DNA from: Magnetococcales bacterium
Lineage (GTDB): Bacteria; Pseudomonadota; Magnetococcia; Magnetococcales; Magnetaquicoccaceae
DNA length: 64,000 bases
Assembly: GCA_015231915.1 (NCBI GenBank)
Contig: JADGAR010000007.1
Span: 27,337 to 91,336 of the forward strand
Direction of reading: 5' to 3'
In this document: positions 35,426 through 61,393 of the stretch, piece by piece
How the letters are laid out: every line of letters begins with the position of its first letter
Numbering within the stretch: the stretch's first letter is position 1
Position numbers and translations under genes: made by a program
The notes under the pieces: model-generated
Database searches by the model: none
What the model was told of the DNA's origin: nothing
What the model saw: only the letters and a program-made list of their open reading frames with translations

Positions 35426-36454
35426 ATGACTCAACTCATTCTTTATAGCAGCGAAGACGGGCAGACCCGGGTGCAACTGCGGATTGAGCAGGGGACGGTC
35501 TGGCTCACGCAACTGGAAATTGCGGAACTGTTCCATGCCACCAAGCAGAATATTTCACTGCACTTGAAGAACATTTATCAAGAAGGTGAACTGGACCCCA
35601 CCGCAACTGTCAAGGAATCCTTGACAGTTCAAACCGAAGGCGCCCGCGACGTGCGCCGCACGGTCACACTGTACAACCTGGATGCCATTCTGGCGGTGGG
35701 CTACCGCGTGCGTTCGCCACGCGGGGTGCAGTTCCGCCGCTGGGCCAGCACGGTGTTGGCGGAATACCTGCACAAGGGTTTCGCCATGGACGACGAGCGG
35801 CTCAAGAATCCCGACGGTCGCCCGGACTATTTCGACGAGATGCTGGCGCGCATCCGCGACATTCGCGCCTCGGAAAAACGCTTCTATCAAAAGCTGCGCG
35901 ACCTGTTCGCCCTGGCCGCCGATTACGACAAGAGCGACCAGGCCACTCAGCAATTTTTTGCCACGGTGCAAAACCTGCTGCTGTATGCCGTCACGCAGCA
36001 GACCGCCGCCGAGCTGATTCTGAGCCGCGCCAACCCGCAGGATGCCCACTTTGGCTTGCTCCACTGGCAGGGTGCGCGGGTACGCAAGCAGGACATCCTG
36101 ATCGCCAAGAATTATCTGACCGAGGACGAAATCGACACCCTCAACCGGCTGGTGGTCATCTTTCTGGAAACCGCCGAACTGCGCGCCAAGCGGCAAACCG
36201 TTACCAGCATGGCATTCTGGCGGCAGAACGTGGGGCAAATCATCACCACAAACGGCTTCCCCCTGCTTGCCGGAGCGGGATCGGTGAGCCATGCCCGCAT
36301 GGAGCAGCAGATTGCCCTGCGCTTTCTGGACTTTGACCAAAACCGCAAAATTCAGGAAGCGCAAGCAGCGGATGAGCAGGACCAGGCCGAGTTGCAGGCG
36401 CTGGCAAACAGGATCAAGCACCGCCAGGGGAGACGGAATGAGCGCCCCCAATGA
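35426..36454 (+). CDS. RhuM-family protein
   Basis: RhuM-like proteins are widespread on genomic islands; their biochemical role is not established. The 342-residue protein opens with the family's QLRIEQGTVWLTQLEIAELF, which looks like a DNA-binding helix-turn-helix, then ISLHLKNIYQEGEL, TVTLYNLDAILAVGYRVRSP and GVQFRRWASTVLAEYLHKGF. The C-terminal half is helical, with YLTEDEIDTLNRLVVIFLETAEL. It is the first gene of the lower-GC island and is followed 45 bases later by the SLATT-like gene on the same strand. Some RhuM relatives are linked to Fic or toxin modules, but no Fic motif is seen. Confidence 0.88.
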   Translation: MTQLILYSSEDGQTRVQLRIEQGTVWLTQLEIAELFHATKQNISLHLKNIYQEGELDPTATVKESLTVQTEGARDVRRTVTLYNLDAILAVGYRVRSPRGVQFRRWASTVLAEYLHKGFAMDDERLKNPDGRPDYFDEMLARIRDIRASEKRFYQKLRDLFALAADYDKSDQATQQFFATVQNLLLYAVTQQTAAELILSRANPQDAHFGLLHWQGARVRKQDILIAKNYLTEDEIDTLNRLVVIFLETAELRAKRQTVTSMAFWRQNVGQIITTNGFPLLAGAGSVSHARMEQQIALRFLDFDQNRKIQEAQAADEQDQAELQALANRIKHRQGRRNERPQ

Positions 36455-36499: not shown

Positions 36500-37354
36500 A
36501 TGACCGATACCGACAATGCCACCGCCGCAACAGACGCGCCTCTCGTGCTGCCTTGCTGGGCGTGCCTCAAGGATTGTCCCGTCTCCTCATCGTGCCCGAC
36601 AACCGCCATCACCGATGAGGAGCCTGCCAGCATATCGCGCAATGATCGTGCGAAGCACCCGAATCTGGCCACGCCTGTTTCCCCCGCGATGGCGTCACAA
36701 AAAATGCCAAAATGTCTTGCATTGTCGATTAATTATTATATATGCGTACAAAATTATTATGAATTGGCGCATGAATGGTATGCAAACAGAAAAAATATAC
36801 TTTCTAGGCGCTCAAAAATTCTAAAATTTTTGTCACTGTTCTTTGGCAGTTTCGGGGCCATCATCCCCATCTCCTCGCCACTGATCACTTACTTTAAAAA
36901 ATCTGCAGATATTAACAGTGCTTTCCCTTTGGATTCCTTTGGCTATGTATTTCTCGCCATCTCCGGCGCCCTGGTTTACTACGACAAAATGTTCGGCGAC
37001 TCCACCGGATGGGTGCGCTGCATCAATACCATGAACCAACTGAAAACCCTCGCCACCCGCCATGAAGAGCAGTGGATGCAGATCCGCGTCTCGCTGGAAT
37101 GCCAGACACAGCAGGACTTGACCCCTGACAACCGCCTTTTTTTCCTGCAGCAGGCCAAGGAGATCGTCAAAATCGCCACGCAATTCAAAAACGATATCCT
37201 CGTGTGCATGCATCAGGAGACCCAAACCTGGATCGAGGAGTTCCAAAGCAACCTGGCCCATCTGCAGCGCAAAGCCGATGAGGCACTGACGCGCGGCGCA
37301 CAAACCACCCCGGCGCAAACCACCCAAACGCAAACCACCCCGACAACCAAATAA
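36500..37354 (+). CDS. Two-TM SLATT-like membrane protein, possible defence effector
   Basis: Resembles SLATT (SMODS- and SLOG-associating two-TM) effector proteins, which are thought to form membrane pores in phage-defence systems and which occur beside reverse transcriptases. The 284 residues hold a polar Cys-containing N-terminus (CWACLKDCPVSSSCP), then a helix leading to two membrane segments (about residues 112-135, FLSLFFGSFGAIIPISSPLI, and 146-162, FGYVFLAISGALVYYDKMFG), a cytosolic helix GWVRCINTMNQLKTLATRHE, and a Thr/Gln-rich tail (QTTPAQTTQTQTTPTTK). AAGGAA precedes the ATG. It lies about 100 bases before the retron protein gene. The family assignment is by pattern only; role in the retron is inference. 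Confidence 0.65.
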   Translation: MTDTDNATAATDAPLVLPCWACLKDCPVSSSCPTTAITDEEPASISRNDRAKHPNLATPVSPAMASQKMPKCLALSINYYICVQNYYELAHEWYANRKNILSRRSKILKFLSLFFGSFGAIIPISSPLITYFKKSADINSAFPLDSFGYVFLAISGALVYYDKMFGDSTGWVRCINTMNQLKTLATRHEEQWMQIRVSLECQTQQDLTPDNRLFFLQQAKEIVKIATQFKNDILVCMHQETQTWIEEFQSNLAHLQRKADEALTRGAQTTPAQTTQTQTTPTTK

Positions 37355-37456
37355 TCTCTCCTCCATAGTTACTTCCATGCGGGTGGATGCCAGAGCATGT
37401 AAACAGCCGTCGAATGCGTGGCAATTGTGACAAAGCAGAAGTACACACGGATTGCA

Positions 37457-38725
37457 ATGATGACCAATTTTCTGCGACTTTCTGAACACCAAAAGAGTCA
37501 GCAATGGATTGCTCAATTTTATGACAGCAAAGACCGGGCGTTAGCGACCCAGTTGATCAATCAGCTCAAACTCGTTTCCAATCGCGAGTTCGAGTGCGGC
37601 ATTGAGCAAGCAATTACTCGTTTACACGATGATTTGAAGGCAAGAATCGCGGTCTATCCAGTAGCTCCACCTATTCCCAATGAAATTGCGGGTTACGATC
37701 CATTCACAGGAGGCATACCGAGAGAGGAGAACACCACCTCCCGTGCAGTCGGTCGTCGCCGCCAGTTCGGCAGTGAAGACAGGGTTGGACACATTCTCAA
37801 AAACATTCAGGAACGATTCAAACGCGACAAAAACTCTACTTCAAGCATTGAATGCTGTCCAACATTGATTCAATTAAAAACCCAAAAAATTTATAATATC
37901 GTTTTGGTAGACGATATTTGTGGTAGCGGTAAGCGCATTACCGATTACTGGAAAAAGTTGATTCCGCGCCATATTAAAAGCCTCCTATCGTTTAAGCGGT
38001 ACAATCTTTGGATAATCCTCTATGCAATCACACGTAATGGGAAAAATGTTATCTTTAAAACAATGCCAAATTTTCCGCATTCTAATCTGATTACTGTTCT
38101 ACCGGAAATCCATTGGCATGAATTTCTGACCTCTGAATTGCGCGGACTCTGCACATCCTACGCCAGAAAATTTAGAATAGGGTCATCTGGATTGGGATAC
38201 CGAGATAGCTTATCTAATATTGTTTTCGAGCATGGTTGCCCCAACAATTTGCCAAAAATTTTATGGATGAACATCAATGGATGGTCAGGATTGTTTCCAA
38301 ATCGATCAATCCCGAATGAGATGCGTCCTTGCTTCGACGCTGACGGATCTGCACGGGCATCCGAGGTTCTGTGGCAAGTCAATCAACCTGGGCTGGCATT
38401 GAGCTTGTTGGATGCTTTGGACCATACAGTTCCTTTGACGACTGAGCAACGAATAATGCTCGCAATGCTGGGGTTGCGTCTACGGGGTGTTTCGGAAAAT
38501 AATTTAGCTGTGAAACTTTTTCTAACTCATCAACAATGCAAAGAAGCTTTGCAAATACTCATAGAAATGGGCTTGTATGATAAAAGATTAACCCATGTAA
38601 CCCAATTGGGGAGGGAGTTTGTTTCTCGCTTCCGCGAACGTTTTGGACCGGCTCGTCGTTTGCGTGCGGTTGCGAAGAGTCCAGAGAGTTATTATCCTCA
38701 GCAGTGTGAAGGGGAACTTCAATAA
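37457..38725 (+). CDS. Retron-associated phosphoribosyltransferase-like/winged-helix protein
   Basis: Accessory protein of a type III retron. Taking ATG 37457 (a GTG at 37418 and an ATG at 37460 are in frame), the 422-residue protein has at about residues 149-160 the PRPP-binding signature VLVDDICGSGKR, preceded by a region rich in basic residues, as in phosphoribosyltransferase-like folds. The C-terminal part (about 330-405) reads as a winged helix: PLTTEQRIMLAMLGLRLRGV, then HQQCKEALQILIEMGLYD and VTQLGREFVSRF. PRTase and winged-helix proteins are the known partners of type III retrons; here the two are fused in one chain. Codon use is AT-richer than the core genome. The last codons lie inside the a1 repeat of the retron RNA. 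Confidence 0.8.
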   Translation: MMTNFLRLSEHQKSQQWIAQFYDSKDRALATQLINQLKLVSNREFECGIEQAITRLHDDLKARIAVYPVAPPIPNEIAGYDPFTGGIPREENTTSRAVGRRRQFGSEDRVGHILKNIQERFKRDKNSTSSIECCPTLIQLKTQKIYNIVLVDDICGSGKRITDYWKKLIPRHIKSLLSFKRYNLWIILYAITRNGKNVIFKTMPNFPHSNLITVLPEIHWHEFLTSELRGLCTSYARKFRIGSSGLGYRDSLSNIVFEHGCPNNLPKILWMNINGWSGLFPNRSIPNEMRPCFDADGSARASEVLWQVNQPGLALSLLDALDHTVPLTTEQRIMLAMLGLRLRGVSENNLAVKLFLTHQQCKEALQILIEMGLYDKRLTHVTQLGREFVSRFRERFGPARRLRAVAKSPESYYPQQCEGELQ

Positions 38726-38941
38726 CTTGGCAAAACTGATCGGAGGTAATGGCCGGTCGGTACCCATGGAGACGCAGTGATGTGGTTCCATGAACGGGGC
38801 GCGGAGTCCGCAGTCCTGGAGACAGCTTTCTTGAGTTTGAGGATGGGTGGTCGACCGTCTATTGTTTCGATTCTCACAGACAGGCCGACCACCCACCCTG
38901 CGCAGCGGGGTTGAAGCAAGAGAATGGAGTTCCCCCTTCAC
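38706..38941 (+). ncRNA. Predicted retron msr-msd RNA
   Basis: The 198-base gap between the accessory gene and the RT gene plus its edges fits a retron RNA. The a1 repeat GTGAAGGGGAACT (38706-38718) is matched by a2 AGTTCCCCCTTCAC (38928-38941), complementary apart from one extra C, and pairing can be extended inward by a G-T wobble and two pairs. Within, the msr part has hairpins 38765-38770/38787-38792 (CATGGA/TCCATG) and 38801-38811. The msd part is a long hairpin: 38841-38853 pairs with 38886-38898 (twelve pairs and one mismatch), continued by 38855-38860 with 38878-38884 (one bulged A), loop about 17 bases. The priming G was not identified with certainty. The ends are approximate. Confidence 0.72.
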
Positions 38942-40111
38942 AATTATCTCAAGAGCTTGCGCGATATTGGCGCACGCGACGGGTATATCAAAGCCATTCA
39001 ACGTAACGCTAAGCCACTGGCCGATTGTGGTCTGCCGGTTATTCTGACCCTCGGACACTTGGCTCACATAACGGATGTGTCTCATGGTATCTTGACCGAC
39101 ATTATCAAACGCCAGATTGATCCATACCGCGTATTCGCAATCCGAAAACGCAATGGTGGCAAGCGATTCATTTGCGTTCCAGAGACAGGTTTGCTCAATG
39201 CGCAGCGATGGATTCATGATGAAATTTTATGTTCTCTTGCTGCGACAAAAAATCTATCTTGTCATGCTACAGCTTATGCTCCAGGCTGCAGTCATGTCAT
39301 AAACGCAAAACGTCATGTTGGTGCCGCATGGATTTTGAAATTTGATATCACCAGATTTTTTGAGTCGATTTCGGAGCGGCAGGTATACCGTGTTTTTCGT
39401 GGCCTCGGATACAGGTCCCAGGTGGCGTTTTGCCTGACCCGTTTATGCACCAGGGTATTACCAACGAACGTTGACCATCGTCTGCTTCGACATACCAAAC
39501 GCTGGCAAACAGGTGATCAACGCAACCAACGCAACTTTTCTGGGGCACGGGTCATAGGACACCTCCCTCAGGGTGCACCAACCAGTCCAATGCTGGCAAA
39601 CCTGGTATGTATACCACTAGATACTGACATGCAAAACATTGCTGCTCGTGAAGGGTTGACGTTTACCCGCTACGCAGATGACATGACCTTCTCTGGCGAG
39701 ATGCTTGATCGTGCGGCGGCGGTCAAAATTTCCAGAGAAGTATCGATTGTCGTCGGTCGTTATGGCTTCGGCATCAATCTGCAAAAAACCAGCATCGCCA
39801 AAAATGGTGGACGCAAGATTGTGACTGGTTTGTCGGTGGACGGCGACGTTGTACGCCTGCCACGTGCCTACAAGGATGCTATTCGCCAGGAGTTATTCTA
39901 TCTCGACAAGCACGGCATCCAGGAACACTGTGCCAGAATCGGTCACAAAAATCATCTGTCCTATCTACTGCGCCTCGCGGGCAGGATTCGATACGCGACT
40001 TCAATCGAACCTGTCATTGGACAACGGATGATGCATCTATTTCTGCGCATTTTCCCGACATTCCAGGAAACAGAGCGGTTGATTTTCCAGGATTTTGTCA
40101 GCGATGATTGA
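38924..40111 (+). CDS. Retron reverse transcriptase
   Basis: Copies the msd part of the adjacent RNA into multicopy single-stranded DNA. The 395-residue protein has retron hallmarks: the NAKRH motif at 127-131 before the first catalytic region, motif A KFDITRFFESIS (Asp 141), HLPQGAPTSPMLANL (LPQG at 214-217), the catalytic FTRYADDMTFSG (YADD at 250-253), NLQKTSI, and the retron-typical VTGL at 300-303 followed by RLPRAYKDAIRQELFYLDKHG. All catalytic residues are present. The ATG at 38924 lies just before the a2 repeat, with only a weak AAGCAAGAG upstream. The partner gene and RNA precede it. Confidence 0.93.
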   Translation: MEFPLHNYLKSLRDIGARDGYIKAIQRNAKPLADCGLPVILTLGHLAHITDVSHGILTDIIKRQIDPYRVFAIRKRNGGKRFICVPETGLLNAQRWIHDEILCSLAATKNLSCHATAYAPGCSHVINAKRHVGAAWILKFDITRFFESISERQVYRVFRGLGYRSQVAFCLTRLCTRVLPTNVDHRLLRHTKRWQTGDQRNQRNFSGARVIGHLPQGAPTSPMLANLVCIPLDTDMQNIAAREGLTFTRYADDMTFSGEMLDRAAAVKISREVSIVVGRYGFGINLQKTSIAKNGGRKIVTGLSVDGDVVRLPRAYKDAIRQELFYLDKHGIQEHCARIGHKNHLSYLLRLAGRIRYATSIEPVIGQRMMHLFLRIFPTFQETERLIFQDFVSDD

Positions 40112-51844: not shown

Positions 51845-52954
51845 TCAGAGGCCCTTCATGATTTCCACCTTGGTCCCGGGCTTGAGGCGCCACTGACCCA
51901 CCGTGACCACCCTTTCGCCGGCCTTCAGGCCGGTGTCGATCACCGCCCGCTCCTTGTCCTCCCAGGCCAGGGTGACCGGACGGGATGCCACGCTCAGATC
52001 CTCCTCGACCACATAGACGAACGGCCCGCGCACGCCGGTCTGGAGGGCCTGCACGGGAATCGTCAGGGCACCCGGGCGGTCGGTCAGCTTCAAAACGAGA
52101 TTCACGAACAGCCCAGGCCAGAGGCGTCGGTCGGGATTGGCGGCCCTGGCCCGCAGGGAAAGGGAGGCCGACTGCCGGTCCACGCTGTTGTCCAGGGCGG
52201 TCACGGTGGCCGGAACGGGGTTTGCCGTCTCCCGGTTGGGGTGTACGAGCAGGGTCAGAGGCGACCTGGCGTGATGTTCCCTGAGGGTGGAAAAAAAGTG
52301 TTCGGCCACCGTGAAGTCGATGCAGATGGGATCCAGCTGGTTGATCACCACCAGGGGGTTGCTGTCATTGGCCTTCACCAGGTTGCCCGGATGGATGAGG
52401 ATGCGGCCCGCCACGCCGTCAATGGGGGAAACGATACTGGTGAAAGAAAGGTTCAGTTCCGCCTCGGCGATGGCGGCGCGATCCGCAGCCACGCCGGCCT
52501 CCAGCGCCCGTCGCGCCGCCACCAGACCGGCCAGCAGCTCCTCCGAGCCGAATTTCTCCTTGTTGAGGGTCGCCTGGCGTCGTTCCTTGCCGAGGGCGTT
52601 TTCCAACTGGGCGAGGTCCCGTTCCAGATCGGCCTTCAGGCGGGCCAGGCGCTGACGGGGAATGCGGTCGTCCAGATCGAAGAGCGGCGCGCCCCTGGTC
52701 ACCTCCTGACCGTCAGTGACATGCGCCTTGGCCAGGATCCCTTCCACTTGCGCCTTGACCGCCACCGAGTGACAGCTCACCGCATTGCCCATGGCCTGGA
52801 TCGTCACCGGGAGGTCCACCTGTTCCACGACGGCCACCGCGACCGTCACCGGTGGCGGCGGGGGCTTCGCCGCCCCGGACTCTTCTTTCTTTGAGCATGC
52901 CGCAAGGGTGAGCAGCAGCAAGAAACATGCACCTGACGGAGACATCCTTGTCAT
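51845..52954 (-). CDS. RND efflux periplasmic adaptor, lipoprotein
   Basis: Membrane-fusion protein linking the RND pump to TolC. The 369-residue protein has a lipoprotein signal (CFLLLLTLAACSKKEE, lipobox LAAC), the first lipoyl half VKAQVEGILAKAHVTDGQEV, a coiled-coil hairpin (about residues 105-145), the second lipoyl half SIVSPIDGVAGRILIHPGNLV, and beta-barrel and membrane-proximal parts (RLWPGLFVNLVLKL, IPVQALQTGVRGPFVYVV). It lies between tolC and the RND gene. Confidence 0.94.
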   Translation of the reverse strand: MTRMSPSGACFLLLLTLAACSKKEESGAAKPPPPPVTVAVAVVEQVDLPVTIQAMGNAVSCHSVAVKAQVEGILAKAHVTDGQEVTRGAPLFDLDDRIPRQRLARLKADLERDLAQLENALGKERRQATLNKEKFGSEELLAGLVAARRALEAGVAADRAAIAEAELNLSFTSIVSPIDGVAGRILIHPGNLVKANDSNPLVVINQLDPICIDFTVAEHFFSTLREHHARSPLTLLVHPNRETANPVPATVTALDNSVDRQSASLSLRARAANPDRRLWPGLFVNLVLKLTDRPGALTIPVQALQTGVRGPFVYVVEEDLSVASRPVTLAWEDKERAVIDTGLKAGERVVTVGQWRLKPGTKVEIMKGL

Positions 52955-52981
52955 ACCAACCCCCGTGCAAACAAGAACCGG

Positions 52982-54253
52982 TTAAAGATCGTGCAACGCC
53001 TCCAGGGTCAACTCCCCCATGGCGGCCAGCAGACGAAAACGGGCCAAAGAGAGGGCAAACCGATTCCTGGTCAACTCGGTTCGGGCCGTGAACTCCTCGT
53101 TGCGGGCATCCAACAGCTCCAACGCGGTGCGGGTTCCCACCCGAAACTCCTCCTCCACCCCGCGCATGGCCAACTCGGCGGCGGACAAGGACCCGCGCAG
53201 GGAACGATCGGCTGCCTCGAGACCTTGCAAATCCCGCACGGCGGACTCCACCTCCCGGGTCATCCGACGCCGCAACAGTTCCACTTCGGCCTGCTGTGCG
53301 TCCCGCAACGCCAATGCCTCGTCGGTTTCGGCCACCGTCATCCCACCGGCATACACCGGCACGCTCACCCCGACCCCGACCTCGTAATGCCCCACCGGAT
53401 CGGTGGTCCCGGCAATCTCCTCGCCCCAGCCACGGGCGGCCTTGAGCGTCAAGGCAACGGTGGGCAGATGCCCGGCCCGCTTCATCGCCACCTCCTCCTC
53501 GGCCACCCGCAACCGCAAACGGGCCGCCTCCAGATCGGGCCGCGCGCTGCCACGCTCCAGCATCCTTTCCAGGGGCAATTCCAGCAACCCGGAACGCACC
53601 TCCGGCAAGGCCAAATTCTCCGGCTCCTCCAGACCGGTCATTTCCTGGAAGCGGGCGCGCGCCACGGCCAGGGCACTCCCGGAGCGCACCAGGTTCGCCT
53701 CGGCGGCGGAGAGCCGCGCCTCGGCCCGGCTCACATCCGTGATGGTCAACTGCCCCACCTTGAAACGGGCGCGGGTCTCTTCCAGATGACGCGCGATCAA
53801 CTCGCGGTTGTTGCCAGCCAGCTGGGCCACCTCCCTGGCCTGCAACAACTCGGTGATCGCCACGACCGTGTCCAGGAACACCCCCTGCATCGCCGCCCGC
53901 AACTCCGCCTCGCCGGCGGCAATGTATGGACGACTCTGGCGCAGGGCGATCCAGGCCTTTTGACTGTACAGGGATTGTTTGAGCGTCACCCCCAGCATCA
54001 GGGGATCGGTGCTGGTGTGGTGCTCCGGCCAGGTCAGGTCCGTGTGGGTCCGGCTGAGGCTCGCATCGATGGAGGGGCGCAGAAGTGCACGGCTCTGGTT
54101 GTGTTTCTCTTTGGCCGCGCGCAACCGCGCCTCGGCGGCCTGGGTGCGGGGATTGCCGTGCATGGCCGCCTCCACCGGTTCCACGAAGGATCCGGCGGCC
54201 TGGGCCGCCACTGTCTGACCGAGCAGAAGCAACAGCAGCAACCCGTTACGCAT
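52982..54253 (-). CDS. TolC-family outer-membrane efflux protein
   Basis: Outer-membrane channel of the same exporter. The start at 54253 opens a clean signal peptide (MRNGLLLLLLLGQTVAAQAA). The 423 residues contain the two OEP repeats with the typical LTITDVSRAEARLSAAEANLVR and GTRTALELLDARNEEFTARTEL, and long alpha-helical stretches. It heads the TolC-MFP-RND row, 27 bases before the adaptor gene. A terminator lies between it and dksA, so it has its own promoter. Confidence 0.92.
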   Translation of the reverse strand: MRNGLLLLLLLGQTVAAQAAGSFVEPVEAAMHGNPRTQAAEARLRAAKEKHNQSRALLRPSIDASLSRTHTDLTWPEHHTSTDPLMLGVTLKQSLYSQKAWIALRQSRPYIAAGEAELRAAMQGVFLDTVVAITELLQAREVAQLAGNNRELIARHLEETRARFKVGQLTITDVSRAEARLSAAEANLVRSGSALAVARARFQEMTGLEEPENLALPEVRSGLLELPLERMLERGSARPDLEAARLRLRVAEEEVAMKRAGHLPTVALTLKAARGWGEEIAGTTDPVGHYEVGVGVSVPVYAGGMTVAETDEALALRDAQQAEVELLRRRMTREVESAVRDLQGLEAADRSLRGSLSAAELAMRGVEEEFRVGTRTALELLDARNEEFTARTELTRNRFALSLARFRLLAAMGELTLEALHDL

Positions 54254-54293
54254 GGCTTGCACCTGGATGGGCATGGAACAAAACACGACCCGA

Positions 54294-54329
54294 GAAAAAG
54301 GGCGCTCCCTCCGGAACCGGCAGGGAGCG
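54294..54329 (-). terminator. Rho-independent terminator after dksA
   Basis: Reading the minus strand, an 8-bp stem (CGCTCCCT with AGGGAGCG, at 54322-54329 and 54303-54310) with an 11-base loop is followed by CCC and five T (54296-54300). It ends dksA before the TolC gene. Confidence 0.85.
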
Positions 54330-54368
54330 ACATGGCCTCACACACGAAGAGGGGGGAGTCGCAACGCT

Positions 54369-54815
54369 TCAGGTCTCGAAGTTGATGTCCTCGACCACGC
54401 GGGTCACCTTCTCCTGACGCTCTGCGGCGGTCTTGCAGTTGATGCACAGATCGGTCACCGGACGGGCCTCCAGCCGGCGCAATCCGATCTCCACACCGCA
54501 CTCCTCGCAATAACCGTATTGATTTTCCTCGATGGCCTCCAGGGTGCGCTTGATCTTGGAGATCAGCTTGCGTTCCCGGTCGCGGGTGCGCAACTCGAAA
54601 TTGCGATCCGTTTCCAGCGAGGCTCGGTCGGTGGGATCGGCGAAGATGGCCTTTTCTTCGGTCATGATGTTGACCGTCTTTTCCGCCTCTTCCAGCAACT
54701 GGCGCTCCCATTCCAACAGGAGCTTGCGAAAGAATGCCCGCTGGTTGGGACACATGAATTCCTCGTCCTCCGAGGGCCTGTATCCTTCAGGCAATTGAAT
54801 ATCGGCGATTTTCAT
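54369..54815 (-). CDS. dksA: RNA polymerase-binding transcription factor DksA
   Basis: Binds the secondary channel of RNA polymerase and, with ppGpp, adjusts rRNA and amino-acid promoters. The 148-residue protein has the coiled-coil tip (IFADPTDRASLETDRNFELR with the conserved D-x-x-D-x-A-type pattern), KRTLEAIEENQYGYCEECGV, and the four-Cys zinc finger CEECG...LCINC. The ATG at 54815 follows GGAGG and gives normal DksA length. Confidence 0.97.
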   Translation of the reverse strand: MKIADIQLPEGYRPSEDEEFMCPNQRAFFRKLLLEWERQLLEEAEKTVNIMTEEKAIFADPTDRASLETDRNFELRTRDRERKLISKIKRTLEAIEENQYGYCEECGVEIGLRRLEARPVTDLCINCKTAAERQEKVTRVVEDINFET

Positions 54816-55647
54816 GGTCTTTGAGCCTCCACGCTGATGATGACGCCAACAGATTATGGAAAACCCCGGCAAAAGTCAATCATCAACGAACATCTTTGCC
54901 CCGCCAAACGCACACGGGTTGTCACCCGCCTTGTTTGCCGTCGGGAAAGCGTAATGCCGATGTCAAGACATCCAGCCAAGCAGTCCCCAAAACCCAAACC
55001 TCGAATATCCGTTGTGAGGGGACACTCGGATCAGGACAAACCGACCCCGCAGCGACACGCCGTGACCTGTCCGAGCAGGCGTACCTGGTGGTCGCGTGAG
55101 CTACCAATGACAAATGGCGCGAACGATCAACAAGCGTTTGCGCCGCACTCTGCAACGCCCCCGCGTCTGAGGAGTAACAGGTGGCACTTACCCCACCGGC
55201 TCGTCTCGCTGCACCACGATCCGGCAGACTTCACGTTCGACGTACAAACTCCTGATAATTTACAAAAAAAATGCATACATACACCAACAAAAAAATTAGG
55301 CATACCCCGCACTTTCATCACCAATCCGACGATTCTGAAATTATCAGGATTTCAGACACACCCCGCAAGTGCCAGCAGCCTGGCACAACCAACCCCTCGC
55401 ACAAAACACAAACATTCCCAACGGCAGAGGTTTGGCCATGTCAAGGATAGGCTATTGGCCTTCATCTGCTCCTGCCATGGAAATACTGGTATCGATCAGC
55501 AGCATGAGCGACGCGATTTCTTCTTCCAGGCAAAAAAATTAACCATTGGGACGTTCCGCCTTGCCTAAACCGAGTTAATCGATTACATTATATACAATGA
55601 TTTTCAGATTACTTCGCGTGTTTGACCTTCGTTGAGCAAAAAAATGG
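54816..55647. other. Intergenic stretch of about 830 bases, no supported gene; island edge
   Basis: Frames across this stretch lack coding character. Composition shifts from GC-rich near dksA to AT-rich after about 55250, marking the left part of the second island. On the minus strand near 55470-55545 a short segment reads EEEIASLMLLIDTSISMAG, resembling the metal-site (DxSxS) of a von Willebrand A domain, soon ended by a stop; it may be a gene remnant. An AT-rich TATATACAAT near 55589 could be a promoter for the RT-nitrilase region. Confidence 0.5.
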
Positions 55648-55884
55648 GTGCGAGGCAAAATGCTTGGCAAATTGGAAATGCGATGCAGTGGATGGTCTGA
55701 GCAAAACGCACTTGTAGCGAGTGGGACATCTGCACCAAAATTCATCACCCAAGCGGTGATGCGGGCGGGCTGGTCCCAAGCCCAAATCCGGAAGGATGTC
55801 AGCTTCACTGCAGGCACCATCGTGGTGCGCGGCAAACTGGCCAACCGTGACACCTACCAGGAACCCGGAAAGGCACTTAAATGA
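55648..55884 (+). pseudogene. Remnant of a type I restriction HsdR gene (N-terminal fragment)
   Basis: The 78-codon frame contains KFITQAVMRAGWSQAQIRKD, VSFTAGTIVVRGKLANRD, which matches the opening of type I restriction endonuclease R subunits (pattern: I-x-P-A-L-x-x-A-G-W, then Q-I-R-E-E-V-x-F-T-x-G-R-I-I-V-R-G-K). The remaining 900 or so residues, including the nuclease and helicase, are missing; homology ends near 55845. The stop overlaps the ATG of the RT-nitrilase gene as ATGA, so the fragment may still be translated and coupled to it. It could also have been recruited as a small leader protein. Confidence 0.6.
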
Positions 55885-58800
55885 GCATTATTAAAGAAAA
55901 ATATCGACGACTTGCCCCGAGATTGTCATATTTGGCAGACGAGGTAGTTTTGACCCAGGCATGGAAAAAATCACAAAGATATATTCGCAAAATCAATTGG
56001 TATGCAGACCTATTAGAGTTGGACCAATCAGCCATCCTTTTAGAAGAGCGAATTGGCGCATGGCAAGAGCAAATCAAGAGATCAAATATAACCAACACCG
56101 ACATGCGTCTTGTGCCAGCCCCAAAAACGCATCGCTGGGGATTTGAAAAGAGTGTGTGGAAACCGACGGAGAAGGGAAAAGATGGTGCGATCAAGCCGAT
56201 CATGCTGCGCCCATTAGCTCATATTAACATTAAGGAGCAGACCATGGCCACCGCCGCCATGCTATGCTTGGCCGACTGCATCGAAACAGCACAAGGGGAC
56301 ACGTCGGAAACTGATTATATTAAGGCACGTAACATGGGTATACACAGTTACGGTAATCGACTTTTGTGTACGTTTGACAAAGAAAATCTTGGTAAGAATG
56401 ATCGACCACTTGCCACATTTAATTGGGGTAACTCGGAGACATATAGCCGCTATTATGTTAATTATAGACGCTTTCAAGCGCGTCCCCACTTTATTGCTGA
56501 GCACATACAAGACCAACTCAGTGAAAATGATGAAATCTTTATAGTCAAATTGGATATTTCCTCTTTCTATGATTGCATATGTCGCGCGACGTTGATTGAT
56601 TGTTTAAAAAATGAATATAAAGAGTTTATAAAAAATTATTCTTCAGTCAACACAAAAAGCACTAAAGAATTCTGGAAGGTGTTACAGTTAATTATGAATT
56701 GGCAATGGGATAAAAAAGATGATTGTTATGAAATATATTTAAAAAATGGAGTTCTTCCAAAGGGACTTCCGCAAGGCCTCGTGGCTAGTGGTTTTTTTGC
56801 AAATGCCTACATGTTAAAATTTGATCGGTTCATTAGCAGTAATCTTAAAAAGACATTAGAAGAATATAATATTATGCCTGATGACGACCCATCGCAAATA
56901 TTATCAAGCATTACATTACATGATTATTGTCGCTATGTTGATGATATACGTTTAGTTATCAGCATAAAACAAAAAATAGATTTTTCTGAAGAAAATGCAG
57001 TAAATTATATAACAAAATTTTTGAATCATTGCCTAAAAATAAAAACAGACTCTAATGACACTCAATACAAATTATCAATCAATAATGACAAAACAGAAAT
57101 AACCTCATTTCGTCTTGCAGCAAGTCAAACTGGAGTGACTGCCCGCATGGCATTGATTCAAAAAAGTCTGAGCGGCCCGACGGACATGGATGCACTCCGT
57201 GAAACCACAGCCGGTTTGAATGAATTGTTGACCGCAACTGACCATTTTGACTGTTGTACCGACCCCAAAGGCGAAATCACCCATCCACTTGCCAAAATCA
57301 TCAATCAAAAATCAGAAGTTAGAGACGATACGTTAAAGCGGTTTGCCGCCTACAGATTAAAATACACACTCCGCCGTCGCAGAGGAATGACGGATCTGAA
57401 CGTCATACTGGAAACCGGTGTCAGCGCGGGAGAAGCCATAGACCATGAAATGGAAACTTATGCCCGCAAAATGGTACGCGCTTGGTCTCATGACCCCGCT
57501 TTGGTACCCGTACTTCGCTTGGCTATGGATCTCTTCCCCAGCCATGATTTGTTGCGCCCTGTTCTGGATTCTTTGCGCGAAACGATTGCACCATCACGGA
57601 GAAAAAACGCCCAGGAGGGTACCTTGGTCGCTTGGTATGTCATTGCCGATTTACTGAAGGCTGGAGCGGTGGAAACAGGCATCTATGCAGGAGATGAGGA
57701 ATTACCAGCGACTTCAAACCAAAAAAAATATCAATCTACACTATTGGAATTTACCAAAGCCTATGTATTCAAAAACAAAAATGCGCCATGGTACGTTTTA
57801 CAACAAGCTTTGTTGCTATTGGTCACTGTTGAACCTTGCCCAGCATTTCAACTAACAAACAGTTCAAAAGAAATTGATCACTATCAAACACTTTTGAATG
57901 CCGCATCGTACACGAGCTGTCAGCCATTGGATCAGGATACTCTTGTTATACATATGTTGTTCCAACAAATACATAAGAATGAAGATCGATTTGCAAGATG
58001 GTTAATAGATTCTCTGGCTAATTCTGAACATTCAGATCGTATAAAGCTGTTAGAAACAGTCAGCTTTAACCGTCCAGACATCATGTCAGCAGTACTACAA
58101 GAACTCAAACGTCGAAAACAGAATTGGATTGATCCAAATCACGAATATTTGAAAATTCCATCTGGTATTCTTGATACTTCCAGAGACTTAAGCGAACTTG
58201 ATGGTACAGAAGTACCTTTGTGGAAAATCATCACACATGCTGACAACCCGTTTAGACATGAAATTCCCTGGTTGCGGCTTGCAAAAGCATTGATCAGGAT
58301 GCTTGCTGGACACGAATACAATAATGAACTAATTATGCGTTTTTCCTTGCGCAATATAAAGATCAAAGCAAACAATTGGAAAGAATTGAATAAACCTGGA
58401 TACTCAACAAATTCTATAAAAATTATTTTTGATTCTGAAGGATCGGCAGACCCCAGACTTGTCAAGCCTGATTGGTGTGACAGGAAATGGGTTCGATTCT
58501 ACGTCTTGGGTCGTTTACTTCGTTCCGCCATCACTGGAGAGGAAGATTTTACTATTACACCTTATCTCCACCGCCAGGATTGGAAAGCTTACCATGGCAT
58601 GCGCAACAGCTGGTACACCCGTCGGATGGGTATGATGCATTCTCCGGAAGCCCTTGGTGGGGAAGCAGCACCATTCTCTCCTTGGGTCAGCGAAATCCTA
58701 ATGCGGTTATTACAATGGCCAGGAGCAAGAGCAGATACAAAGCTTATTGAAAATTTTGAAACCATTCAGTCATTACACGATCTGCGCAGAATGATCAACA

Positions 58801-59771
58801 GACGCATTATTGAATTATCAAAATTGTTTGGAAGAGCTTCAAACCTGCCAGTCTACCCAATCATCATTGGACATACTCTCCGCCAGGATGGAGTCTTACG
58901 CGTAGCCCTTGCCCAAACGCTGATGCCTAAACAGTCGGATTTCACTACGCTTGATCCATACCTCAACCATTCCACCTACCGACCTGTACATCGAAATCAT
59001 CTGACAACCGTTTGCTCATTGATAGTGTCACAGTTGAAAGCACAAAACGCTGCCGAAAGCAATACTACTAAAGAAAAATCGACAGCTTTGGCGGATTTGA
59101 TCATTTTCCCTGAGCTTTCGGTACATCCAGACGATATAAAAATTCTAAAAAGCCTCTCTGATGCTACAAATGCGATACTTTTCTTTGGTATGACGCCCTT
59201 TAAAATTAAAAATGAAAAAATCATCAATACAGCTTGTTGGCTCATCCCTGATCATCGTTCGACTGGACGCTCATGGGTTATCAGACAACAAGGAAAATGG
59301 CATCAGACAGTAAACGAGCAGGAACTTAAAATTGTTCCGTGGAGGCCTTACCAAGTAATTATTGAACTGCCAAAAAATAATCACAGCAAACGTGGATTCA
59401 GAATAACTGGCGCTATTTGTTATGATGCTACCGATTTGAATTTAGTAGCAGATATGAAAAATTTGTCAGATCTTTTTGTTATTACAGCTATGAACAAAGA
59501 CGTTCAAACGTTTGATAATATGGTGGCGGCACTGCATTATCATATGTATCAACATGTAGTGCTTGTAAACACAGGAGAATTTGGAGGATCCACAGTTCAA
59601 GCACCTTTTAAAGAAAGGCATGATAAGCTTATTACTCATTTGCATGGCGGTGGGCAGATTGGTGTGAGCATCTTTGATATTGACTTGATGGATTTCGGCC
59701 CGGATGCCACTTTTGCAGAGACAAAACAACTGAAAAAATTCCCACCTGCAAACTTCACGAGATTCACATAA
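55881..59771 (+). CDS. Reverse transcriptase-nitrilase fusion, DRT type 1 (UG1-like)
   Basis: Defence-associated reverse transcriptase of the type 1 architecture (unknown-group 1 RT with a C-terminal nitrilase). The 1296-residue protein has an RT domain with FIVKLDISSFYDCICRATLI (motif A Asp 225), LPKGLPQGLVASGFFANAYM (LPQG 296-299), CRYVDDIRLVISIK (YVDD 352-355) and SINNDKTEITSF. A long helical middle region follows. The last 250 residues form a nitrilase-like hydrolase: IIFPELSVHPDDIKIL (Glu 1078) and ITGAICYDATDLNLVADM (Cys 1180), with GEFGGSTVQAP near the end; the triad Lys lies between but was not pinned down. All catalytic residues seem intact. The gene is strikingly AT-rich against its neighbours, indicating transfer. 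No second conserved gene is beside it. Confidence 0.88.
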   Translation: MSIIKEKYRRLAPRLSYLADEVVLTQAWKKSQRYIRKINWYADLLELDQSAILLEERIGAWQEQIKRSNITNTDMRLVPAPKTHRWGFEKSVWKPTEKGKDGAIKPIMLRPLAHINIKEQTMATAAMLCLADCIETAQGDTSETDYIKARNMGIHSYGNRLLCTFDKENLGKNDRPLATFNWGNSETYSRYYVNYRRFQARPHFIAEHIQDQLSENDEIFIVKLDISSFYDCICRATLIDCLKNEYKEFIKNYSSVNTKSTKEFWKVLQLIMNWQWDKKDDCYEIYLKNGVLPKGLPQGLVASGFFANAYMLKFDRFISSNLKKTLEEYNIMPDDDPSQILSSITLHDYCRYVDDIRLVISIKQKIDFSEENAVNYITKFLNHCLKIKTDSNDTQYKLSINNDKTEITSFRLAASQTGVTARMALIQKSLSGPTDMDALRETTAGLNELLTATDHFDCCTDPKGEITHPLAKIINQKSEVRDDTLKRFAAYRLKYTLRRRRGMTDLNVILETGVSAGEAIDHEMETYARKMVRAWSHDPALVPVLRLAMDLFPSHDLLRPVLDSLRETIAPSRRKNAQEGTLVAWYVIADLLKAGAVETGIYAGDEELPATSNQKKYQSTLLEFTKAYVFKNKNAPWYVLQQALLLLVTVEPCPAFQLTNSSKEIDHYQTLLNAASYTSCQPLDQDTLVIHMLFQQIHKNEDRFARWLIDSLANSEHSDRIKLLETVSFNRPDIMSAVLQELKRRKQNWIDPNHEYLKIPSGILDTSRDLSELDGTEVPLWKIITHADNPFRHEIPWLRLAKALIRMLAGHEYNNELIMRFSLRNIKIKANNWKELNKPGYSTNSIKIIFDSEGSADPRLVKPDWCDRKWVRFYVLGRLLRSAITGEEDFTITPYLHRQDWKAYHGMRNSWYTRRMGMMHSPEALGGEAAPFSPWVSEILMRLLQWPGARADTKLIENFETIQSLHDLRRMINRRIIELSKLFGRASNLPVYPIIIGHTLRQDGVLRVALAQTLMPKQSDFTTLDPYLNHSTYRPVHRNHLTTVCSLIVSQLKAQNAAESNTTKEKSTALADLIIFPELSVHPDDIKILKSLSDATNAILFFGMTPFKIKNEKIINTACWLIPDHRSTGRSWVIRQQGKWHQTVNEQELKIVPWRPYQVIIELPKNNHSKRGFRITGAICYDATDLNLVADMKNLSDLFVITAMNKDVQTFDNMVAALHYHMYQHVVLVNTGEFGGSTVQAPFKERHDKLITHLHGGGQIGVSIFDIDLMDFGPDATFAETKQLKKFPPANFTRFT

Positions 59772-59809
59772 ACATGTCGTGAGCAACCTTCGCAGACGAC
59801 GGAGTGACC

Positions 59810-59986
59810 ATGTGGACAGACCCGATCATTGAAGAAATCCGCAAGGTGCGCGAGGAACACGCCGCCCGGTTCCATTACGATCCGGTGGCCATCTACAACG
59901 ATCTGGTGCGCATGCAAAGGGAATCGGGCCGGGAATACGTCGATTTGTCGCGTCGTCCCGAAGAAAAAAACCGCACGACCGGCTGA
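59810..59986 (+). CDS. Short conserved protein of unknown function
   Basis: A 58-residue acidic helical protein with a pattern seen in small bacterial families of unknown role (MWTDPIIEEIRKVREEHAAR, then YDPVAIYNDLVRMQRESGRE). Related short proteins are sometimes found with toxin genes, but no toxin lies beside it. GGAG precedes the ATG at 59810. It follows the AT-rich RT gene but has GC-rich codons, so it probably belongs to the host side of the island edge. Its stop shares the palindrome TGATCA with the convergent glcD-like gene. Confidence 0.65.
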   Translation: MWTDPIIEEIRKVREEHAARFHYDPVAIYNDLVRMQRESGREYVDLSRRPEEKNRTTG

Positions 59987-61393
59987 TCAGGCGCTTTCGC
60001 CGAAGATCTTGCCCGGATTGAGGATGCCCTTGGGATCGAACAGCCGCTTGATGTTTTTTTGCAGTTCCAAAGCGACCGGATCCAGCTCCCAGTGGATGTG
60101 ATCGCGCTTCATGATGCCCACGCCATGCTCCCCGGACAAGGTCCCGCCCAGGTCCAACACCAGCCGGAACACCCGGTCCAGCGCGCCCCTGGCCCTGGCC
60201 ATCAGATCGGCGTCGGCGGGATCCACCAAAAGATTGACGTGAATGTTGCCGTTGCCGGCATGCCCGAACCCGACGATGGGCACCCCGGAGGCGGCGGAAA
60301 TCCCCTCCAGACCGGCAACCAGCTCGCTCAGCCGGGAGACCGGCACCACCACGTCCTCGTTGATCCGGCGCGGGGCGATGCGGGTGAGGGTCGGCGACAG
60401 GGCATGCCGTGCCGCCCACACCCGGCGGGTTTCCTCTTCGGTGGCGGCCAGAAAGGTCTCCAGCGGGGCGAAGGGCCGCAGCCGCTCCAGCATCTCCTCG
60501 GCCTTGCGCCCCACCTCGCCGGCAGACCCCTCCACCTCCAGCAACAGCAACGCCCTCCCCTCCTCCGGGATCCCGACCCCGCCCTCACGGCGCAACAAGG
60601 CCAGCGCGGCAGGATCCAGAAACTCCAGGGCCGACGGCGGCTCCCCGCTCCCCATCACCCCGGCCACCGCCTGGGTGGCATCCCCCATGGAACGAAAACA
60701 GGCCCGCAACAGCCGGCGCGCCTCCGGGCGCGGGGCCAGACGCAACACCGCCTCCACCACCACCGCCAGGGTCCCTTCCGAACCGATCAGCAACTGAGTC
60801 AGGTCATATCCCACCACCCCCTTGGTGGTCCTGACGCCGGTGCGCATCGGCGTCCCGTCCGGCAGCACCACGGTCAGGCCCAGCACCCAATGGCGGGTCA
60901 CGCCGTAACGCACCGCGTTGGGACCCGCCGAACACATGGCCAGATTGCCCCCGATGGTGCAACTGCGCGCCGATGAAGGATCCGGCGGCCAGAACAGACC
61001 GTGCGTCTGCAACACCCGGTCCAGCTCCCCGTTGACCACCCCCGGCTCCACCACCGCCAGCCGGTCCTCCGGGACCACGGCAAGGATGCGGTTCAACCGC
61101 TGGGTGGAAAGAATCACCCCCCCGGACACCGCCAGCGCCCCGCCGACACATCCGGTCCCGGCCCCGCGCGGCACCACCGGAACCCCTGCCCGATGACACA
61201 CCCGCAACACCGCCGCCACCTGCTCCCGGTTCTCCGGCAGGGCCACGGCCCAGGGCAGATGCCTTTGCCCGGCATTGTCCCAGGCATACGCCTCGCGCTG
61301 GGCAGCACCCGTCAACAGGCCGCCGGGTCCCAAAGCCGACGCCAGCTCCCCCGTCAGGCCGGGGTCCGGCTCAGAAACCGCCTTCAACGACAC
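59987..61393 (-). CDS. FAD-linked oxidase, GlcD/D-lactate dehydrogenase type
   Basis: Predicted to oxidise a 2-hydroxy acid such as glycolate or D-lactate. FAD-binding part: VPVVPRGAGTGCVGGALAVS, DPSSARSCTIGGNLAMCSAG, and GYDLTQLLIGSEGTLAVVVE. C-terminal part: IVGFGHAGNGNIHVNLLVD and LSGEHGVGIMKRDHI, ending KIFGESA. The GTG at 61393 is a likely start, giving 468 residues and overlapping the upstream lipoprotein gene by 23 bases; the ribosome site is weak, so the start is uncertain. GlcE and GlcF are not present, which makes a single-subunit D-lactate dehydrogenase (or similar) as likely as glycolate oxidase. Confidence 0.9.
   Translation of the reverse strand: MSLKAVSEPDPGLTGELASALGPGGLLTGAAQREAYAWDNAGQRHLPWAVALPENREQVAAVLRVCHRAGVPVVPRGAGTGCVGGALAVSGGVILSTQRLNRILAVVPEDRLAVVEPGVVNGELDRVLQTHGLFWPPDPSSARSCTIGGNLAMCSAGPNAVRYGVTRHWVLGLTVVLPDGTPMRTGVRTTKGVVGYDLTQLLIGSEGTLAVVVEAVLRLAPRPEARRLLRACFRSMGDATQAVAGVMGSGEPPSALEFLDPAALALLRREGGVGIPEEGRALLLLEVEGSAGEVGRKAEEMLERLRPFAPLETFLAATEEETRRVWAARHALSPTLTRIAPRRINEDVVVPVSRLSELVAGLEGISAASGVPIVGFGHAGNGNIHVNLLVDPADADLMARARGALDRVFRLVLDLGGTLSGEHGVGIMKRDHIHWELDPVALELQKNIKRLFDPKGILNPGKIFGESA

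Follow-up and report, generated by a model that had tools for sequence, protein, structure and literature searches.

Why does a gene for a phage-defence reverse transcriptase (RT) sit directly behind the stump of a restriction-modification operon, and is the arrangement particular to one genome? We examined a 64,000-nucleotide (nt) stretch of a Magnetococcales bacterium, here called the window (GenBank assembly GCA_015231915.1, contig JADGAR010000007.1, positions 27,337 to 91,336 of the forward strand; coordinates without a locus name count from its first letter), which carries a drt1 gene encoding an RT and a nitrilase in one chain. The gene itself is ordinary, being one further DRT1 of a family already known. 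What is new is its place right behind the restriction-modification stump, an arrangement found in about half of the related genes examined. The two elements concerned are the following.

55648–55884, + strand: decayed 5' fragment of hsdR (type I restriction subunit), a 78-codon open frame; PADLOC REase_I match, 3.3e-07.
55881–59771, + strand: drt1 gene, with RT, alpha-helical repeats and nitrilase in one 1296-residue chain; seen as an open reading frame (ORF), by PADLOC Drt1a and by PDB entry 9YFD.

The hsdR fragment is all that remains of a type I restriction (hsd) gene directly upstream of drt1 on the same strand, and it ends in ATGA, so that its stop codon shares 4 nt with the drt1 start. 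A search of 11 same-genus genomes for hsdR gave matches in three, the window's own included, and the HsdR frames of the other two, 800 and 804 codons long, are 70–72% identical to the fragment. Compared with these intact frames the fragment carries two 1-nt insertions and its native start is gone, which marks it as a remnant; a functional hsdR mini-protein was rejected on the same ground. A preliminary description of the locus, made from the sequence alone, had been right about the drt1 gene but had missed the restriction-enzyme remnant in front of it.

We surveyed 42 DRT1 loci, comprising 18 of the 19 from one search, 23 chosen from the matches of further searches and the window itself; this sample is not random, its loci being drawn from chosen groups. 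The HsdR, HsdM and HsdS seeds were confirmed by Pfam. Left out of the counts were L019 (75 residues only), the partial or cut-off copies G600, G1109, G908, G867, G1255 and G004, and G069 (nitrilase end only), while L092 was taken, from record length and position, as the same place as L061. Upstream DNA was too short in L008 and L015 and downstream DNA in L002, L003, L004 and L077, leaving 40 and 38 evaluable loci, respectively. We found a type I hsd gene or remnant directly upstream and on the same strand in 20 of the 40 evaluable loci (the window counted through its PADLOC fragment match). The spacing to drt1 is −17 to +70 nt in 19 of these 20 and 448 nt in L006. Within 600 nt downstream of drt1 there were no hsd genes in any of the 38 evaluable loci, the nearest being an HsdM-like gene at 611 nt in L060. 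The linked loci comprise four hsdM-hsdS-hsdR-drt1 operons, eight hsdR-hsdM-hsdS-drt1 operons, one with a HindI-type HsdR, and seven with remnants only. Outside the 42, the plasmid loci L089, L090 and L091 and the E. coli locus L093 have no annotated hsd gene directly upstream, and adding them gives 20 linked loci of 44. Our literature searches found no report of a link between DRT1 and type I restriction, their reach stopping short of most subscription papers and of the 2022 UG/Abi survey.

The simplest account makes DRT1, in many lineages, an accessory member of the type I restriction operon, the position that PrrC and TgvAB hold in others. Its main rival is passenger status within defence islands, where the link would reflect mere clustering of defence genes and nothing specific to DRT1, and we regard this rival as a serious possibility, a little short of probable. 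The choice of groups sampled favours it, as does the presence of other defence genes in type I loci, namely PrrC in EcoprrI and TgvAB in the V. cholerae island VPI-2 (PMC12707154, PMC3874165, PMC11411939). So does a control set of 11 Vibrionaceae Drt2 loci, in two of which (L084, L085) a type I operon precedes Drt2 at a distance of about 1.6 kb. Against it stand the tight direction and spacing described above and the spread of the linked operons over two gene orders plus the HindI-type one. In the same control, moreover, hsd genes within 600 nt upstream were found in none of the 11 loci, giving a difference in adjacency between DRT1 and Drt2 of p=0.004 by Fisher's test over all 42 loci and p=0.016 within Vibrionaceae.

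Other defence-type genes also stand directly behind drt1 in restriction operons, among them PDC-S11 in L006 (11964–13052), a gene in L012 (11963–13066) that begins alike, and an AbiD-like gene in L016 (11977–12957), which the gene downstream of drt1 in L068 resembles. In the locus whose DRT1 comes closest to that of the window, a type II-like DNA methyltransferase (L075, 9029–10312, − strand) precedes the gene by about 190 nt.

Comparison of related loci suggests how the stump may have arisen. At least three of the remnants, those in L002, L067 and L068, are small ORFs ahead of drt1 in which the beginning of HsdR is joined in frame to the end of HsdS. L066, the sister of L067, keeps the whole operon, and the L067 ORF corresponds to the L066 hsdR start joined to the L066 hsdS end (about 75% identical DNA), with about 5.7 kb lost; such pairs of an intact and a collapsed operon are ready-made comparisons. 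The gap before drt1 is constant within pairs, at 10 nt in L066 and L067 and −4 nt in L074 and L068, and the window shares the −4 nt overlap of the latter pair. On a tree the window groups with L075 and L076 and then with L068 and L074 (Shimodaira–Hasegawa-like approximate likelihood ratio support 90), and the seven loci with remnants only need seven separate changes, so that loss of the restriction genes has occurred several times over with DRT1 retained. Such repeated loss with DRT1 kept fits the published observation that DRT1 works alone. From this comparative genomics we infer that the ancestor of the window gene would have stood behind hsdS in an hsdR-hsdM-hsdS-drt1 operon, its restriction genes having probably been removed by deletion.

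The identity of the gene behind the stump is much firmer. Its bounds are exactly 55881–59771 on the + strand, with an ATG start and 1296 uninterrupted codons, the stop included in the coordinates; shuffling the bases of this DNA 200 times gave no open run longer than 191 codons. The PADLOC Drt1a profile (PDLC03745) matches residues 1–1291 with E=0 and 1355.9 bits, far above all other RT families listed, and a second PADLOC profile, PDLC02171, matches the same protein at 3e-225. In a phmmer search of PDB sequences the sole match was 9YFD, the DRT1 studied by Neville et al. (2026), at E=1.2e-194 over residues 1–1293, and the nitrilase half alone matches it at 9.1e-98. From Pfam there is just a weak RVT_1 match, and all four matches in NCBIfam fall far under their cut-offs, the best being Drt3a at 48.5 bits. 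An AlphaFold2 model of the last 500 residues, of moderate quality (mean predicted local distance difference test score 63.8), has 29 PDB matches at E≤0.001 that are nitrilase-superfamily enzymes (nitrilases and amidases). The nearest sampled full-length DRT1 relatives are 52% and 51% identical to the window protein. These results bear out the UG1/DRT type 1 layout first proposed, a single 1296-residue chain with a YVDD RT and a C-terminal nitrilase: the best family models are Drt1a and not an RT outside UG/Abi, and both sequence and model place the C-terminal part with nitrilases. The gene had also been described as AT-rich within a GC-rich genome, and its GC content is indeed 40.8%, against 61.4% for the window. 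A scan around drt1 gave 17 promoter-like sites (11.3 expected) and five terminator-like ones (4.9 expected) and was uninformative.

We then aligned 19 full-length relatives (the window, 16 loci of one search and two of another) with MAFFT, together with stretches of 9YFD. The invariance check across the 19 covered the DD of YVDD and not its Y and V.

56517–57107, + strand: RT core, Pfam RVT_1, residues 213–409 (E=6.5e-07, 29.7 bits against a cut-off of 29.6).
56934–56945, + strand: YVDD RT catalytic motif, residues 352–355; D354 and D355 align with D324 and D325 of 9YFD, and DD is present in 19/19.
57171–57173, + strand: Ser431, candidate DNA-priming serine in an SGP motif, aligned with S402 of the studied DRT1; 19/19.
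59112–59114, + strand: nitrilase Glu1078 (FPELS, 1076–1080); 19/19.
59295–59297, + strand: nitrilase Lys1139 (QGK, 1137–1139); 19/19.
59316–59318, + strand: nitrilase second glutamate, Glu1146; 19/19.
59418–59420, + strand: nitrilase nucleophile Cys1180 (ICYD, 1179–1182), equivalent to C1116 of the studied DRT1; 19/19.
59736–59750, + strand: C-terminal lid K1286, P1289 and A1290, equivalent to K1219, P1222 and A1223 of the studied DRT1; 19/19.

The Glu and Cys sites reported at first as intact (E1078 and C1180) thus hold throughout the set, as do K1139, E1146, the lid residues and S431, which the preliminary description did not name; the tetrad of the nitrilase superfamily is Glu-Lys-Glu-Cys. 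The pairing of S431 with S402 was found by both phmmer and MAFFT, and a two-residue gap just before S431 makes it alignment-dependent.

These residues bear on whether the window gene might be a degenerate, inactive DRT1 left behind as its restriction system decayed. The adjoining hsdR fragment has plainly decayed, and DRT1 pseudogenes do exist, with one E. coli copy (NZ_CP029576) annotated as frameshifted and stops present in the G908, G867 and G1376 copies. The window gene, however, is open over its full length and has lost none of the catalytic, priming and lid residues that we were able to check, making inactivity very improbable. That the window carries a defence gene of the DRT1 type (UG1, class 3), intact and gained by horizontal transfer, is in our view highly probable. 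Interrupted frames occur in other loci: L016 (8001–11919) and L017 (690–4515) encode DRT1 as two overlapping ORFs, one for the RT and helical part and one for the nitrilase part, split at about the same place, and the L074 frame is interrupted at a different one.

The preliminary description called the mechanism of this family poorly understood, but it has since been worked out. The studied DRT1 builds A-rich DNA in a template-free, protein-primed reaction on a single serine, S402; the DNA adducts drive it into dormant filaments, its C terminus shuts the nitrilase pocket, and defence is lost in RT, nitrilase and S402 mutants and likewise in C1116A, K1219A and A1223F (Neville et al., 2026, PMC13275509). 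In the accessible part of that source, C1116 is the only nitrilase residue named by number. T4 escapes through mutations in the helicase gene dda, and 12 of 15 sensitive phages carry Dda or a homologue, the same passage calling all tested phages without either insensitive (PMC13275509). By analogy with this homologue, on which every biochemical step is modelled, the window RT domain would add untemplated DNA to its own Ser431, the adducts would push tetramers into dormant filaments, and the C-terminal tail would close the nitrilase pocket. The pocket may then open when a suitable phage infects, which in the case of T4 means one that has the Dda helicase, and the freed nitrilase would destroy or make some essential small molecule and so bring about cell death. 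Because the published DNA synthesis needs no RNA template, the associated RNA suggested earlier is not expected; Rfam gave no matches at gathering scores over the whole window, and an RNA partner was dropped as a candidate.

Several points weigh against this picture of an active defence gene born in a restriction operon. The studied DRT1 is a distant relative, aligned over its full length with several gaps, and its R1210–Y1215 pseudoknot contact is not kept, the window protein having P1274 and K1282 in these positions. The column of Y1215 varies throughout the aligned set, so that the contact does not define the family; the lid is conserved, and the filament lock, or the grip between neighbouring tails, may differ in detail. 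Phage defence by the window protein is predicted by homology. As to history, the proposed operon deletion rests on a 171-nt similarity and the 4-nt overlap, and neither of the two closest DRT1 genes, at 52% and 51% identity, is directly preceded by an hsd gene.

A stronger version of the restriction link would make DRT1 a functional partner of the restriction enzyme, a PrrC-like guard or a back-up, and not a passenger. Close operon coupling across lineages that differ in hsd gene order speaks for it. T-even phages with modified DNA are what TgvAB protects against, and its authors propose that it complements restriction (PMC11411939). One source describes complete resistance of T4 to type I enzymes (PMC3874165), and DRT1 protects against T4 (PMC13275509); a similar complementing of restriction may therefore apply to DRT1. 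Yet DRT1 stands beside nothing but restriction remnants in seven of the 20 linked loci, and the studied DRT1 defends by itself in E. coli MG1655 (PMC13275509), so that a partner is not obligatory; we judge the partnership unlikely. Slightly less doubtful, though still tentative, is the idea that the place behind the last hsd gene is where DRT1 originated, or to which it keeps returning, and that there, by translational coupling, it would form a second line of defence, killing cells infected by a phage with DNA that evades restriction. Its own lock would let it outlive deletion of the hsd genes, leaving stumps of an hsdR start and an hsdS end of the kind found in the window. The genomic context is more useful than the gene itself. 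A role tied to restriction can be tested; should co-expression of DRT1 with type I enzymes prove common, this would point to comparing DRT1 with and without its native restriction operon, and in the presence of anti-restriction proteins.

The drt1 gene was acquired as part of an islet.

55126–59984, no strand: AT-rich islet, absent from the close relative G001.

G001 has about 220 unrelated bases in place of these 4.9 kb, and the flanks match it at 89.7% (window 52937–54981) and 91.7% (59985–60561) DNA identity, with a weaker 92-nt match ending at 55125. Of 100 genomes sampled, six gave a DRT1 match, among them the window's own genome and one with a weak match to the nitrilase end only. A broad gammaproteobacterial draw of 369 genomes matched only in its own centre genome. 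No records matched in a phage collection, and none of three pattern matches in viral contigs was confirmed; plasmids gave seven records, four of which cover at least 80% of the query. In E. coli, 77 of 5426 genomes matched over the C-terminal part only, and the single copy opened, that of NZ_CP029576, lacks an annotated hsd gene in its vicinity. The window's other AT-rich stretch holds a type III-A retron (36500–40111, + strand; SLATT_2 protein 36500–37354, PRTase with winged helix 37418–38725, RT 38924–40111) beside a RhuM-family gene (35426–36454), placing two RT-based defence systems 16 kb apart.

Some DRT1 systems include a membrane partner, drt1b. None was found behind the window gene, where positions 59811–59984 contain neither a PADLOC match nor a membrane ORF. 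It is present in 10 of the 42 loci, including two of the 20 restriction-linked ones; PADLOC confirmed the partner in L013, L089, L090 and L092, and the other calls are based on where the ORF lies, on its membrane segment and on sequence similarity. We do not claim that drt1b and restriction genes exclude each other (2/20 versus 8/22, p=0.07). In L090, a Photobacterium toruni plasmid, DRT1 and drt1b adjoin type I-F CRISPR genes and TniQ and look like cargo of a CRISPR-associated transposon.

Among known systems, the DRT1 of 9YFD is the natural counterpart of the window protein, sharing the RT-helical-nitrilase layout over its full length and the positions of the RT aspartates, priming serine, Glu/Lys/Glu/Cys and lid K..PA, with drt1b needed in neither. 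It differs in length (1229 residues versus 1296) and in having the R1210–Y1215 contact, and only the window gene follows an hsdR remnant. Systems of DRT1 with drt1b use the same RT-nitrilase and are set apart by the membrane partner, which is missing directly downstream in the window. The UG5 RT-nitrilase (DRT5) has a related nitrilase (PADLOC RT_UG5-nitrilase, 1.8e-45), but the Drt1a profile covers the entire chain and with a far higher score. PrrC in EcoprrI and TgvAB resemble DRT1 as accessory anti-phage genes carried by an hsd operon; they are unrelated proteins, whereas DRT1 has its own filament lock and has repeatedly lost the restriction genes beside it.

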